Shown in pieces: positions 51,697 to 59,574 of a stretch of DNA of 64,000 nt; position 1 is the first letter of the stretch; every line of letters starts with the position of its first letter. Source of the stretch: Chthonomonas calidirosea (lineage in GTDB: Bacteria; Armatimonadota; Fimbriimonadia; Fimbriimonadales; Fimbriimonadaceae); contig CAMCWC010000014.1 of NCBI GenBank assembly GCA_945882415.1, positions 1-64,000 on the forward strand, in the 5' to 3' direction. Below the pieces are notes generated by a model, which worked only from the letters and a program-made list of their open reading frames with translations, was not told the DNA's origin and did no database searches. The position numbers and the translations under genes were made by a program.

Positions 51697-53811
51697 ATGC
51701 TCAAGTACGACGTCATCAAATCTCTCGACGATTCCCATGTGATGGGAACCTACCAACGCCTCCCGGCCCTTTTTGTCCAGGGTGCCGGAGCCAAGCTGTG
51801 GGATAACCGAGGCAAGGAATATCTCGACCTGCTTTCCGGAATCGCGGTTTGCGCTCTAGGCCACTGCCACCCCGCCATCACCGCCGCGCTCGCTCGACAG
51901 TCGCAGCAGCTCATCCACGGCAGCAATTACTTGCTCACTGCCCCTCAGGCTCAGCTCGCCCAAAAGCTCTGCCAAATCAGCGGCATGGAGAAGGTCTTCT
52001 TCGGCGTTTGCGGCGCGACCGCCAACGAAGCCGCCCTGAAAATTGCCAAGAAGCACGGTCGCCGAAAGACCGGCGACGAGAGCTACGAAATCATCGCGCT
52101 GAACCGCAGTTTCCACGGCCGAACCATGGGTGCTCTTTCGGCAACCGGAAACTCCCGCTACCACGAGCCGTTCCTGCCGCTCGTTCCCGGCTTCCGCCAC
52201 ATCGAGCCAGATGATATCGACGCCCTGCGAGCCGCGTTCTCGGACAGCACCGCTGCCGTCATCCTCGAAACCGTCATGGGCGAGGGTGGAGTGCATGCGC
52301 TCTCGACGGAGTTCCTCGCCGAAGCTCGACGCCTCTGCGACGAGCACAACGCGTTTTTGATCCTGGACGAAGTCCAGTGCGGAATGGGCCGCACGGGCCG
52401 CTGGTTCGCGTTTCAGCACACCGATGTCGTTCCGGACATCCTCGTTCTCGCAAAGGGCCTCGGCGGCGGTATCCCGATCGGTGCCGCGCTGGCTCGCGGA
52501 CTCGCCGCGACGATGCTTGTTCCTGGCGATCATGGCAGCACCTTTGGCGGAAACCCGCTGGCTTGCGCGACCTCGCTTGCCGTCATCGACACGATCGAGC
52601 ACCAGGGCTTGCTTGAGCACACGGAACGGATTGGGAATCAACTCGCTTCGGGCCTAAAACAGCTCGACGGCGTCACAAAGGTCGAGGGCCTCGGACTCAT
52701 GCTCGGTGCCAAGCTCCGTACGCCCGTTGCAAAGGAGATCGTTGCCAAGTGCTTTGAGAACGGCCTGATCATCAACGCCACCGACCTCAGCACGCTCCGC
52801 CTCGTTCCGCCGCTCATCCTCACCGACGAGGAAGCGCGCCGTGCGCTGGACATCATCGCCGACGCGATGGAAACCGCGCGCCCCGTCCTTACACCGCTCG
52901 CCGTTCGAACCGAATCCAAGCCAGCGTTCCACGATGTCCTTTCCATCGACGACCTGACGAACGATCAGCTAGAAGAGGTCCTGTCCCTCGCCGCAGCGCA
53001 GAAGCACCGCCGCAAAGTGGCTCCGGCACCGATTCAACGCGTCGAGAACCGAACCGTCGCCATGGTCTTCGAAAAGCCCAGCTTGCGAACCCGCGTCAGT
53101 TTCGAGAGCGCCGTTTCCGAGCTTGGCGGGCACCCCGTCTATCTCAGCCGAAACGACATTGGCATGGGATCTCGCGAGTCGGTCAAGGACGTCGCGAGCA
53201 ACCTCTCGCAGTGGTGCTCGCTCATCATCGCCCGCCTCTACTGGCACCGCCAGTTGGTCGAGCTATCGGATGTTTCGGACGTTCCGGTCGTGAACGCTCT
53301 CACCGAGTGGGAGCACCCTTGCCAAGCCCTCGCCGACATGCAGACCGTGCGCGAAAGCTTCGGCGACGAGCGAGTAAAGATCACCTATGTCGGAGACGGG
53401 AACAACGTCGCCCGGTCGCTTGCCAAGCTGGCCACCCGACTCGGATATCCGTTCACCGTCGCCGGCCCCGCAAACTTCCAACTTGAGCCGATGGAAGGCC
53501 TGACCCAGACCGCCAACATCGAAGAAGGCGTGAAAGACGCCAGCGTGATCTACACGGATGTCTGGATCTCGATGGGCGACGAGCACGAGCAGGAGCACCG
53601 CATGAAGGTCTTTGCGGCCTACCAGGTCAACGAGGACGTTATGGAAATGGCGAACTCGGAAGCGATCTTCCTGCACTGTCTCCCTGCGCGCCGAGGCTAC
53701 GAGGTGACCGACGGTGTCATCGACGGCCACCAAAGCCGAGTCGTCCCCCAAGCCGAAAACCGCTTCCACGCCCAGAAGGCCCTCCTGGCCAAAATGATGG
53801 GCCTCGCTTAG
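51697..53811 (+). CDS. Fused acetylornithine aminotransferase (ArgD) - ornithine carbamoyltransferase (ArgF)
   Basis: One 704-residue reading frame holds two arginine enzymes. Residues about 1-398 are a PLP class III transaminase (GIAVCALGHCHPA, FHGRTMGALSATGN, LDEVQCGMGRTG, LAKGLGGG with PLP lysine K253, STFGGNPLACA). Residues about 405-704 are ornithine carbamoyltransferase, with SLRTR at 462-466 (carbamoyl-phosphate binding), HPCQ at 540-543 and HCLP at 660-663. All catalytic motifs are kept and the linker is short, so both domains should work. The two reactions are linked by ornithine, which ArgJ makes from the ArgD product. argC and argJ lie 4-5 kb downstream; argB is not in the window. 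Confidence 0.93.
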   Translation: MLKYDVIKSLDDSHVMGTYQRLPALFVQGAGAKLWDNRGKEYLDLLSGIAVCALGHCHPAITAALARQSQQLIHGSNYLLTAPQAQLAQKLCQISGMEKVFFGVCGATANEAALKIAKKHGRRKTGDESYEIIALNRSFHGRTMGALSATGNSRYHEPFLPLVPGFRHIEPDDIDALRAAFSDSTAAVILETVMGEGGVHALSTEFLAEARRLCDEHNAFLILDEVQCGMGRTGRWFAFQHTDVVPDILVLAKGLGGGIPIGAALARGLAATMLVPGDHGSTFGGNPLACATSLAVIDTIEHQGLLEHTERIGNQLASGLKQLDGVTKVEGLGLMLGAKLRTPVAKEIVAKCFENGLIINATDLSTLRLVPPLILTDEEARRALDIIADAMETARPVLTPLAVRTESKPAFHDVLSIDDLTNDQLEEVLSLAAAQKHRRKVAPAPIQRVENRTVAMVFEKPSLRTRVSFESAVSELGGHPVYLSRNDIGMGSRESVKDVASNLSQWCSLIIARLYWHRQLVELSDVSDVPVVNALTEWEHPCQALADMQTVRESFGDERVKITYVGDGNNVARSLAKLATRLGYPFTVAGPANFQLEPMEGLTQTANIEEGVKDASVIYTDVWISMGDEHEQEHRMKVFAAYQVNEDVMEMANSEAIFLHCLPARRGYEVTDGVIDGHQSRVVPQAENRFHAQKALLAKMMGLA

Positions 53812-55130
53812 CGAACCGAAGCGGTGTAAGGCAAGCTCACCGTGAGCTGGTCCGGGTCGTTACTGGTAACGGTAACCGTCCCGGACTTTGTTCCGGCACT
53901 CGTCGCCGTGTAAGAAATCTGATACCGAATCGGCTTGCCCCGAGCGAATAGGATTCGGCGTCCGCCATCCCGTACGACTCCTGAAGGCACCGTCACGTTG
54001 TGGGTTAGCGCCGCGATGCCGTTTGGACCCCACAGTACGCGATCGCCGTCATCATAAACGTCTAGCGGAACCGAGACGGTTTCGCCGACCACCATCTTTC
54101 CAAAGTCGATGCTGGTCTCGGAGAGACGCATCTTCGCGGGAGCCTTGATGTCGAGAAAAACCGGAAGGTGGCCGTTTGCCGGCGTGGCATCCACGAGCGC
54201 CTGAGCGATCACGCTTCCAACCATCGAGTTACCAGTGATTGTCATCGGCACGTTGTAGCTCGACCCATCGTTGCCCCAGCATCGGTACGAGTGGTTCGGG
54301 TCATTCCACGTGGTCGTGCTGTAAACGAGGTTCTGGACGCCAATGTAATCCATTCCCACGCCGTCCACGAGGTCGGGCGAAAGCAGAATCTGGTCGTACC
54401 GGCTGTCCATCTGCCCTACCGGATCTTGCGTGTGGATAAAGCGGAACGAATTGTTATTGTCCCAACTCCCGGGGGACGCAATCGGGTCAATGAACGGACC
54501 AAAGCTGTTCACGGAGCGAGTCAATGTTTGATAAGCCGACTGCGACGCATTCTGGATGTTGAGATCGCCCGCAACCATTCGTGATCTCTCCGGCGGTAGT
54601 CCACCAGCATTAGAAATGATGTTGTTGACTTCAAGTAGCCGCCGACTAAGATCCGTGGACCCGGTTCCAGATTTTAAGTGAACGCTGTAAGCCGAGATCG
54701 TCGCCCGCTCGCTGCTGTATCCCTTAAGCCGAAAGTCGTAGCGCATCGTGTTGCGCGGCTGACCACTCGTGCCAGACGACCCAGCCGCCGCGATGACTTG
54801 CCCCAGGAAAGTGACCTTCGAGGTTCGATAAAAGAAAGCACTGTCCGTATCTGGACCGTCGATAAAAGTTGCCGCTGCCCAGTCGCCCGGGCTGCCCGGT
54901 GCCGTGTTTAGAATCGAAAGGAACGCCGTGACACCGGCCTGCGAGAGAAATTCTTGACCGATGAAAACGTCTGGCGCGAACTTTCGCCCCTGAAACTCGC
55001 CATAAATCGAGGTCTGGAACGCGGACACCCGCCCGCTTGAATAGTTGGTAACGTTCCAAGTTCCAACGCGCAATTGCGCCGCGGAAACTGTCGACAAACA
55101 AACACAAAGTGCAACGGTTTGGAATTTCAT
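53808..55130 (-). CDS. Secreted endonuclease/exonuclease/phosphatase-like protein
   Basis: The 440-residue product has a signal peptide (VALCVCLSTVSAAQ) and an EEP-superfamily fold: RVGTWNVTNYS, the metal glutamate in FIGQEFL, YSVHLKS, GDLNIQN and DSRYDQILLS. The last motif, usually SDHxPV, reads NGHLPV, so the histidine is present but the acidic partner is glycine. From about residue 345 a beta-sandwich domain follows (SETSIDFGKMVVGETVSVPL) of the choice-of-anchor/ASH-like type, ending VTSNDPDQLTVSLPY. Its stop overlaps the fused arg gene stop by four bases. Confidence 0.78.
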   Translation of the reverse strand: MKFQTVALCVCLSTVSAAQLRVGTWNVTNYSSGRVSAFQTSIYGEFQGRKFAPDVFIGQEFLSQAGVTAFLSILNTAPGSPGDWAAATFIDGPDTDSAFFYRTSKVTFLGQVIAAAGSSGTSGQPRNTMRYDFRLKGYSSERATISAYSVHLKSGTGSTDLSRRLLEVNNIISNAGGLPPERSRMVAGDLNIQNASQSAYQTLTRSVNSFGPFIDPIASPGSWDNNNSFRFIHTQDPVGQMDSRYDQILLSPDLVDGVGMDYIGVQNLVYSTTTWNDPNHSYRCWGNDGSSYNVPMTITGNSMVGSVIAQALVDATPANGHLPVFLDIKAPAKMRLSETSIDFGKMVVGETVSVPLDVYDDGDRVLWGPNGIAALTHNVTVPSGVVRDGGRRILFARGKPIRYQISYTATSAGTKSGTVTVTSNDPDQLTVSLPYTASVR

Positions 55131-57379: not shown

Positions 57380-58384
57380 ATGATGCCCACCAAAATTCGC
57401 ATCGGGATTGTCGGCGCAACCGGATATACCGGCGCGGAGCTCGTGCGGCTGCTCAGTAGCCATCCGAACGTGGAGATCGCGGTGGTCACTTCTGGCCGAC
57501 ATGCCGGCGAGCTACTCTCCGCCCACTGTCCCTGGCTCGATTCCGAGCTTGTCCTTTCAAGTTTCGATCCGGCCAACCTCGACGTCGATACGGTTTTCCT
57601 CTGCCAAGAAAGTGGTTTCGCCCTCCACCACGCGGCCGAGTTGGCGCAGCGAATGCGCGTGATCGACCTATCTGCCGACTTCCGATTGAAAGATGCCGAT
57701 GCCTTCCGCGCCGCATACGGCCTTGAACCGGCCACGCTTCCGGAAGGAATTCGTACGGTTTACGGATTGCCCGAGATCACCGATCATGCCCGCATCCGCG
57801 AAGCGCACATCATCGCGAACGCGGGTTGCCATGTCGCGGCAAGCACCCTTGCGCTTAACCCATTCGCCAAAGCCGGTCTGGTCAGCGGCACACCGGTCAT
57901 CGACACCAAAACGGGTGTCTCTGGAGCAGGAAGGTCACGGGCTGAAACTGCCTATCTCTTCTCCGAACTTGACGGCTCCGTCTCCGCTTATAAGATCACG
58001 GGTCACCGGCACATTCCCGAAATTGAACAGAACATCGGTATCGCTGTTCGATTCACCCCGCATCTTGTCCCCGTGCCCCGCGGCCTCCACGCCACGATCC
58101 AATTCCCATCCACCTGCACTGATCCGATTTCGATTTTGGAACTTGCTTACGAAAACGAACCGTTCGTCCGGGTGGTTCACACCCCGCCCCAGACCAAGCA
58201 TGTCCTCGGCTCTAACCGGTGCGACGTCTACGCAACCCACGATCCCCACACTGGTTTTGTCATCGCGATTGCTGTTCTTGACAACCTGGTCAAGGGCGCC
58301 AGCGGCAATGCGATCCAGAACCTCAATCTCGCCTTTGGGCTTCCTGAAACCGCCGGATTGCCGATCCACGGACTATGGCCGTAA
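57380..58384 (+). CDS. argC: N-acetyl-gamma-glutamyl-phosphate reductase
   Basis: ArgC reduces acetylglutamyl phosphate to the semialdehyde with NADPH, the substrate of the ArgD half of the fusion. It has the dinucleotide motif GIVGATGYTGAELVRLL, the DLSADFRL strand, the active-site cysteine in ANAGCHVAAS and GHRHIPEIEQ with the catalytic histidine. Around the cysteine the usual NPGCYPT is changed to NAGCHVA. The length of 334 residues is normal. Two ATGs, at 57380 and 57383, are both possible starts. argJ follows 35 bases downstream. Confidence 0.94.
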   Translation: MMPTKIRIGIVGATGYTGAELVRLLSSHPNVEIAVVTSGRHAGELLSAHCPWLDSELVLSSFDPANLDVDTVFLCQESGFALHHAAELAQRMRVIDLSADFRLKDADAFRAAYGLEPATLPEGIRTVYGLPEITDHARIREAHIIANAGCHVAASTLALNPFAKAGLVSGTPVIDTKTGVSGAGRSRAETAYLFSELDGSVSAYKITGHRHIPEIEQNIGIAVRFTPHLVPVPRGLHATIQFPSTCTDPISILELAYENEPFVRVVHTPPQTKHVLGSNRCDVYATHDPHTGFVIAIAVLDNLVKGASGNAIQNLNLAFGLPETAGLPIHGLWP

Positions 58385-58419: not shown

Positions 58420-59574
58420 ATGAGTTTGCTAACGGGACCGAAGGGATTTCAATTTGCGGGGGTGCGTTGCGGGTTAAAGAACAAGCGGAACGACCTCGGC
58501 TTGTTGGTGTCCGATGTTCCCGCCCGAGCAGCCGGAGTCTTCACCCAGAACGTCGTCCGCGCTGCATGCGTGGACCATTCTCGCGCCGTACTCAGCACGG
58601 GCACGCTCCGTGCCCTCGTGGTCAATAGCGGTAACGCCAACTGCTGCACCGGTGAGCAAGGGGCGCGTGACACCGCCCGAATGGCCCAATTGGCCGTTGC
58701 TGCGCTGAACTTAGAAGATCAGCCCGTCGCCGTCGCCTCTACCGGAGTCATCGGCCAGCTTCTCGATATGGCCAAAGTCGAGCGTGGTGTGTTCAGCGCT
58801 GCCTCCCAACTCGGCGCGGACGTCCGCCCGTTCATGGACGCCATTCTCACGACCGACTTGGTCGAAAAGCACGCCTCGGCGACCATCGGCGGAGCCCAAA
58901 TCCTCGGCGTCGCCAAAGGCTCCGGCATGATTGCGCCAAACATGGCGACCATGCTCGCCTTTGTCGTCACGGACGCCGCCATTGGTGACTATGACCTCCA
59001 AGGCATGTGGAAGCGCGTCATGGACCGCTCCTTCAACCGCGTCACCGTCGACAGCGACACCAGCACCAACGACATGGCGCTGCTGCTAGCCAACGGACTC
59101 TCGGGCGAAACGCCATCCGAAGCGGAGTTCGAACGAGCCTTGCTCGAAGTCGCCGACTCCCTCTCTCGCCAAATCGCGCGCGACGGTGAAGGTGCGACCA
59201 AGCTCCTCGAGATTCAGGTCACCGGTTCCGCAAACCCCCGACGGATTGCCGAAAGCATCGCGAACTCGCCGCTGGTCAAAACTGCGATGTTCGGGTGCGA
59301 TCCTAACTGGGGCCGCATCCTTATGGCCGCCGGAAAAGCAGAAATTCCGTTTGAAATGGACGGCATCGTCCTGACGCTCAAATCGAACGGCGAAGACCAT
59401 GTGCTCTTCGAAGCGGGATCACCTGCGCCCTTTGATCCCAAGAAGGTCTCGAGCGGCCTCAAGTCCGACCACGTGATCGTTGATCTCTACTTGGGACCCG
59501 GCGAGTCCGAGACCGTCTACACCTGCGACTTTGGCTACGGCTATGTTCGCATTAACGCCGAATATCACACCTAA
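58420..59574 (+). CDS. argJ: Glutamate N-acetyltransferase / ornithine acetyltransferase
   Basis: ArgJ recycles the acetyl group from acetylornithine to glutamate, closing the cyclic arginine pathway. The 384-residue precursor has VVNSGNANCCTGEQG with the oxyanion region, KGSGMIAPNMATMLAFVVTDA where the A-T bond of MATML is the self-cleavage site and the threonine the nucleophile, and SDTSTNDMALLLANG. It ends YGYVRINAEYHT. It is directly behind argC on the same strand. Confidence 0.95.
   Translation: MSLLTGPKGFQFAGVRCGLKNKRNDLGLLVSDVPARAAGVFTQNVVRAACVDHSRAVLSTGTLRALVVNSGNANCCTGEQGARDTARMAQLAVAALNLEDQPVAVASTGVIGQLLDMAKVERGVFSAASQLGADVRPFMDAILTTDLVEKHASATIGGAQILGVAKGSGMIAPNMATMLAFVVTDAAIGDYDLQGMWKRVMDRSFNRVTVDSDTSTNDMALLLANGLSGETPSEAEFERALLEVADSLSRQIARDGEGATKLLEIQVTGSANPRRIAESIANSPLVKTAMFGCDPNWGRILMAAGKAEIPFEMDGIVLTLKSNGEDHVLFEAGSPAPFDPKKVSSGLKSDHVIVDLYLGPGESETVYTCDFGYGYVRINAEYHT

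Follow-up and report, generated by a model that had tools for sequence, protein, structure and literature searches.

In the 64,000-nucleotide stretch of Chthonomonas calidirosea DNA analysed here (the window), acetylornithine aminotransferase (ArgD) and ornithine carbamoyltransferase (OTC) are encoded as one uninterrupted chain of 704 residues. Judging from the sequence, this protein very probably performs both ordinary reactions, with a free ornithine acetyltransferase, ArgJ, acting between them. The arrangement is conserved within one family of the phylum, and it would join two steps of arginine synthesis that are not adjacent.

The fused gene and its two halves

Coordinates are reported in Table 1. 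Translation of the frame revealed zero internal stops. The N-terminal half scored 458.1 bits against the NCBIfam profile TIGR00707, argD (cut-off 410.05; residues 15-391, profile positions 2-380 of 381), and the C-terminal half 317.1 bits against TIGR00658 (cut-off 280.85; residues 413-701, profile positions 2-303 of 304). Pfam placed Aminotran_3 at residues 22-390 of the chain, OTCace_N at 413-553 and OTCace at 560-698. The first-pass annotation had described a single-chain fusion with a short linker and both sets of catalytic motifs intact (K253, SLRTR, HPCQ and HCLP), joining two steps that are not consecutive. All of this was borne out: the 704-residue frame is open and both halves exceed their cut-offs, the profile ends leave residues 392-411 as the linker, the motifs lie where they had been placed, and the profile scores identify the second half as a true OTC.

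Table 1. Features of the fused gene and of the downstream arginine genes (window positions)
Feature	Position	Strand	Basis
Fused argD-argF gene	51697..53811	+	single ORF, ATG to TAG, 704 aa
ArgD half, residues 1-391	51697..52869	+	TIGR00707 match; 2ord closest solved structure
PLP lysine K253, ArgD half	52453-52455	+	
Linker, residues 392-411	52870..52929	+	variable, predicted disordered
OTC half, residues 412-704	52930..53808	+	TIGR00658 match, motif conservation, PDB relatives 1pvv/1a1s
SLRTR, OTC half, residues 462-466	53080-53094	+	
HPCQ, OTC half, residues 540-543	53314-53325	+	
SMG of ornithine loop, OTC half	53569-53577	+	
HCLP, OTC half, residues 660-663	53674-53685	+	
argC, N-acetyl-gamma-glutamyl-phosphate reductase	57380..58384	+	TIGR01850, 336 bits (cut-off 234)
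argJ, ornithine acetyltransferase, step between the fused activities	58420..59574	+	NF003802, 446 bits (cut-off 351); TIGR00120, 424 bits (cut-off 298)

In OTCs, the motifs SxRTR and HPxQ serve for carbamoyl phosphate, and DxxxSMG and HCLP for ornithine (PMC6022934). The C-terminal half carries all four (SLRTR, HPCQ, HCLP and, in addition to those already named, the ornithine loop DVWISMG at residues 621-627), and they are kept across the fused relatives. An alignment of fused proteins comprised 34 rows, two of which are duplicates (L006 of G089, L007 of G145), leaving 32 distinct proteins; throughout these, K253, SLRTR, HPCQ, HCLP and DVWISMG were invariant or nearly so. The PLP lysine and PLP-binding residues D224, Q227, K253 and T282 did not vary in any fused row, and the positions invariant in the fused proteins further included H140, S462-L-R-T465, H540-P, Q543, D621, S625-M-G and H660-C-L-P. 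The N-terminus MLKYD.IK, start methionine included, was kept in most relatives.

Both halves are under strong purifying selection. Between the window's genome and G088, the closest pair, dN/dS (Nei-Gojobori) was 0.031 for ArgD, 0.027 for OTC and 0.111 for the linker, and the linker was looser in several further pairs too, all linker values being rough since this segment has only some 20 codons. Over the aligned core the linker spans 13 to 18 residues, and its length and sequence vary among fused proteins. In the AlphaFold model of the chain (49 aligned sequences, mean pLDDT 91.5), the sole stretch with pLDDT below 50, residues 403-408, falls inside the linker; with a pTM of 0.65, the model does not fix the relative placement of the halves. 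The top Foldseek matches in the PDB were ArgD structures, for example 2ord (46% identity over 390 columns), and sequence matches of the OTC half were 1pvv and 1a1s; among the 50 Foldseek and 60 sequence matches listed, none spanned both halves. Being variable and predicted to be disordered, the linker looks more like a plain tether than part of a fixed interface.

The genome to which the window belongs (3.36 Mb, 38 contigs, 99% complete) was also searched for the other argD or argF copies that the first-pass annotation had wanted checked. A PF00185 search found no second OTC, the only other protein with this domain being the aspartate carbamoyltransferase PyrB (347 bits, cut-off 263). Three PF00202 aminotransferases were found, namely the fusion, a 420-residue protein on contig C11 and a 443-residue protein on C4. 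The C11 protein was rejected as a spare ArgD, as it is putrescine-aminotransferase-like and scored 382.7 bits, below the cut-off of 410; its homologues lie just below or above that cut-off in nearly all family members, with or without the fusion. Among the PF00202 proteins classified, the fusion and the C11 protein, no second ArgD above cut-off was found.

A convergent gene of 440 residues (53808-55130, minus strand) shares 4 bases with the 3' end of the fused gene. Pfam gave nothing for it beyond a choice-of-anchor D match below threshold at its C-terminus.

Distribution and origin of the fusion

The range of the fusion within the phylum was assessed in 291 genomes, first with the whole protein as query and then with OTC profiles. 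The fusion was found in 31 of the 85 genomes of family f1, 30 of them with an intact copy, across 8 genera and at 60-96% identity. The first-pass annotation had held that a stop or frameshift between the domains in other strains would speak against a fusion; no stop between them was found in any fused relative of this family. One metagenome-assembled genome, G086 (locus L102), has a TAG at codon 538 of the fused frame, inside the OTC half, and ArgJ was not found in that assembly; the stop may reflect pathway decay or an assembly error.

Outside family f1, two species of family f10 (G011 and G014) carry a fused open frame of 737 codons, with about 45% identity and a longer linker, so that the search for the domain order returned 30 intact f1 genomes and these two species. 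A broad range was rejected: when 84,980 species were scanned, only L006 and L007 were fused among the best 80 loci, and these are the same genes as those of G089 and G145. None of 392 Planctomycetota or 385 Alphaproteobacteria had the fusion; stop-separated argD-argF neighbours are common in both. Distant fusions may exist in further phyla.

Some relatives possess a single half. In G101 this is an OTC related to that of the fused gene; in G121, G129 and G130, which all carry an N-acetylornithine carbamoyltransferase, it is an ArgD related to the fused ArgD. These lone halves suggest later loss of one half, and since they lack their partner, some species at least can do without the tether.

Most likely, the fused gene arose by loss of the stop between neighbouring argD and argF genes. 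This origin is deduced from other lineages in which the two genes are neighbours in one frame with a single stop; in families f8, f9, f13, f14 and f31, argD adjoins argF with one in-frame stop between them. In family f3, which belongs to the same order as f1, argD and argF are unfused and widely spaced (about 390 kb in G163). The trees of the two halves differed. The fused clade was sister to family f3 in the ArgD tree, and to the other OTCs of families f1 and f2 in the OTC tree, where a grouping of the fused clade with the f3 OTCs was rejected (p = 0.026). Given this discordance, the halves may have met from different backgrounds before fusing; such separate histories would be harder to reconcile with an ancient argDF pair that simply lost its stop. 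The OTC tree rejected a single origin of the f1 and f10 fusions (AU p = 0.012), the ArgD tree did not (p = 0.34); from these trees the two fusions are likely, if unproven, to be independent.

Pathway context and proposed mechanism

The genes argC and argJ lie 3.6-5.8 kb downstream of the fusion on the same strand, argJ being 4.6 kb away, and ArgH was found on contig C2 of the same genome (510.8 bits, cut-off 279.5). ArgH was present in 30 of the 31 genomes with the fusion. Within the 85 family genomes, 30 had both the fusion and ArgJ, 1 the fusion only, 2 ArgJ only and 52 neither. ArgJ thus occurred in 30/31 fused against 2/54 unfused genomes (Fisher p ~2e-19, species being counted as independent despite their relatedness). 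Both genomes with ArgJ only look like MAGs, with completeness of 94% and 68%. N-acetylornithine carbamoyltransferase showed the opposite pattern, 0/31 fused against 33/54 unfused genomes, the species again being counted as independent, which they are not. In the window's own genus, G081, G083, G084 and G097 have this enzyme and no ArgJ, and the others have the fusion with ArgJ, which is a complete swap of the arginine route within one genus.

Several other configurations were seen. In G083 (locus L158), the N-acetylornithine carbamoyltransferase gene adjoins another ArgD-like gene. Twelve genomes had no OTC, and neither N-acetylornithine carbamoyltransferase nor ArgH above cut-off; these may be arginine auxotrophs. 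Four more (G078, G099, G106 and G107; L116-L119) have an unfused OTC and ArgH, with neither ArgJ nor the acetylornithine enzyme, and an aminotransferase gene stands in the same cluster in three of the four; they possibly make arginine from ornithine that is formed without acetylated intermediates. The ArgJ match of G080 is in two pieces within one frame of 487 residues (G080:C1:2278602-2279810), pointing to an insert of some 25 residues. An ArgC-ArgJ fusion, suspected in genus g31 from long ArgJ frames, was rejected, the two being separate frames in G147.

We propose that the chain consists of two ordinary enzymes on a flexible tether of about 20 residues. The ArgD half would convert N-acetylglutamate semialdehyde to N-acetylornithine, the separate ArgJ would transfer the acetyl group to glutamate and release ornithine, and the OTC half would carbamoylate that ornithine to citrulline. 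ArgJ must act between the halves because the second one is a true OTC, not an N-acetylornithine carbamoyltransferase. ArgD-type aminotransferases are dimers. Anabolic OTCs are trimers (PMC6022934, PMC8517447). Tethering a trimer to a dimer should give larger particles, and the expected effect of the fusion would be to fix a 1:1 ratio and to gather OTC trimers and ArgD dimers in one such particle. Substrate would presumably not be handed directly from site to site: ArgJ intervenes, the linker is loose and the need for ArgJ follows from chemistry alone, so that direct channelling is unsupported. An elaboration that we regard as unlikely is a closed cage or ladder, for instance one in which three ArgD dimers connect two OTC trimers, holding ArgJ or its substrates and recycling acetyl locally. 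If true, the acetyl cycle would have a metabolon fixed at the level of the gene, one that evolved at least twice in the phylum.

The near-perfect co-occurrence of the fusion with ArgJ, together with the position of argC and argJ downstream of the fused gene here and of argJ about 5 kb downstream of it in G088, could also be read as a scaffold docking ArgJ, with N-acetylornithine channelled to ArgJ and the ornithine returned to the active site of OTC. The first-pass annotation had suggested such a metabolon around ArgJ, or a trimeric or hexameric assembly set by the OTC part; both stay conjectural. Co-occurrence does not discriminate, however, because an OTC that takes ornithine and depends on ArgD for its supply always requires a deacetylation step in between, whether or not the two are tethered. 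As the linker is unconserved and disordered, and argJ often lies on a different contig in the other fused genomes, we consider a docking scaffold rather improbable.

Fainter still are the chances that one message yields two working proteins, either through a start codon within the frame or through a cut in the linker. The linker is disordered, the window's own gene has an in-frame ATG at codon 391, and the chain may be cleaved after translation. No conserved internal start codon was found in the linker of the aligned fused proteins, however; possible starts differ in place in G098, G145 and G134, some being inside the OTC fold, and all 30 intact genes read through the linker without a stop.

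It is very hard to sustain that the second half is an N-acetylornithine or succinylornithine carbamoyltransferase, which would make the fused steps consecutive. N-acetylornithine carbamoyltransferase does occur in the same family (33 genomes) and in the same genus, but the C-terminal half scored only 145.9 bits against NF003384 (cut-off 288), compared to 317 bits against 281 for OTC; it keeps the DxxxSMG ornithine loop and HCLP, and the fusion occurs with ArgJ, never with the acetylornithine enzyme. Finally, although single-gene fusions in MAGs are in general experience often artefacts, a sequencing or assembly error, or a gene prediction running over a missed stop, has practically no chance of explaining the joined frame and is refuted by the same open frame in 30 species, including the single-contig genomes G080 (one contig of 5.23 Mb), G134 and G135.

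Comparison with known fusions

The nearest precedent for the joining of non-consecutive arginine enzymes is argH(A) of marine gammaproteobacteria, a fusion of argininosuccinate lyase and N-acetylglutamate synthase (PMC1382215). As there, two complete pathway enzymes share one conserved frame, here in 30 species of f1 and 2 of f10. However, argH(A), which is thought to be operon-born, unites the last and the first step, whereas ArgD and OTC have ArgJ between them. The adjacent argD and argF genes of Planctomycetota, Alphaproteobacteria and others have the same domains in the same order, often in the same reading frame, but they encode two polypeptides, with one or more stop codons between them. 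A trimeric transcarbamylase tied to a pathway partner is also known from CAD, fungal CPS II-ATCase and the class A ATCase-dihydroorotase dodecamers, which form large particles (PMC6022934); the partners there are consecutive enzymes of pyrimidine synthesis and include no aminotransferase. The bifunctional N-acetylglutamate synthase-kinase of Xanthomonas (PMC1865377) is likewise a fusion within arginine synthesis, but of consecutive steps and different folds.

We found no description of an ArgD-OTC pair in the open-access papers searched. The pair appears to be undescribed; few arginine-pathway fusions are known, and those that join non-adjacent steps, as here, are rare. Annotation pipelines that give one name per gene could miss either of its activities. 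The family also offers a natural experiment, with sister species of one genus having either the fused ArgD-OTC with ArgJ or N-acetylornithine carbamoyltransferase; as both routes occur in one genus, what the tether does and how the route switches can be studied by direct comparison.

A different OTC fusion was observed in family f11 of the same phylum, at L201 3794-1932 (minus strand) in G023 and at L202 in G021. By Pfam, it is one chain of 620 residues with two Clp_N repeats and a T2SSE-like segment on the N-terminal side of a complete OTC, and its gene adjoins argD and an argB-like ORF. OTC seems prone to gain N-terminal partners in Armatimonadota.
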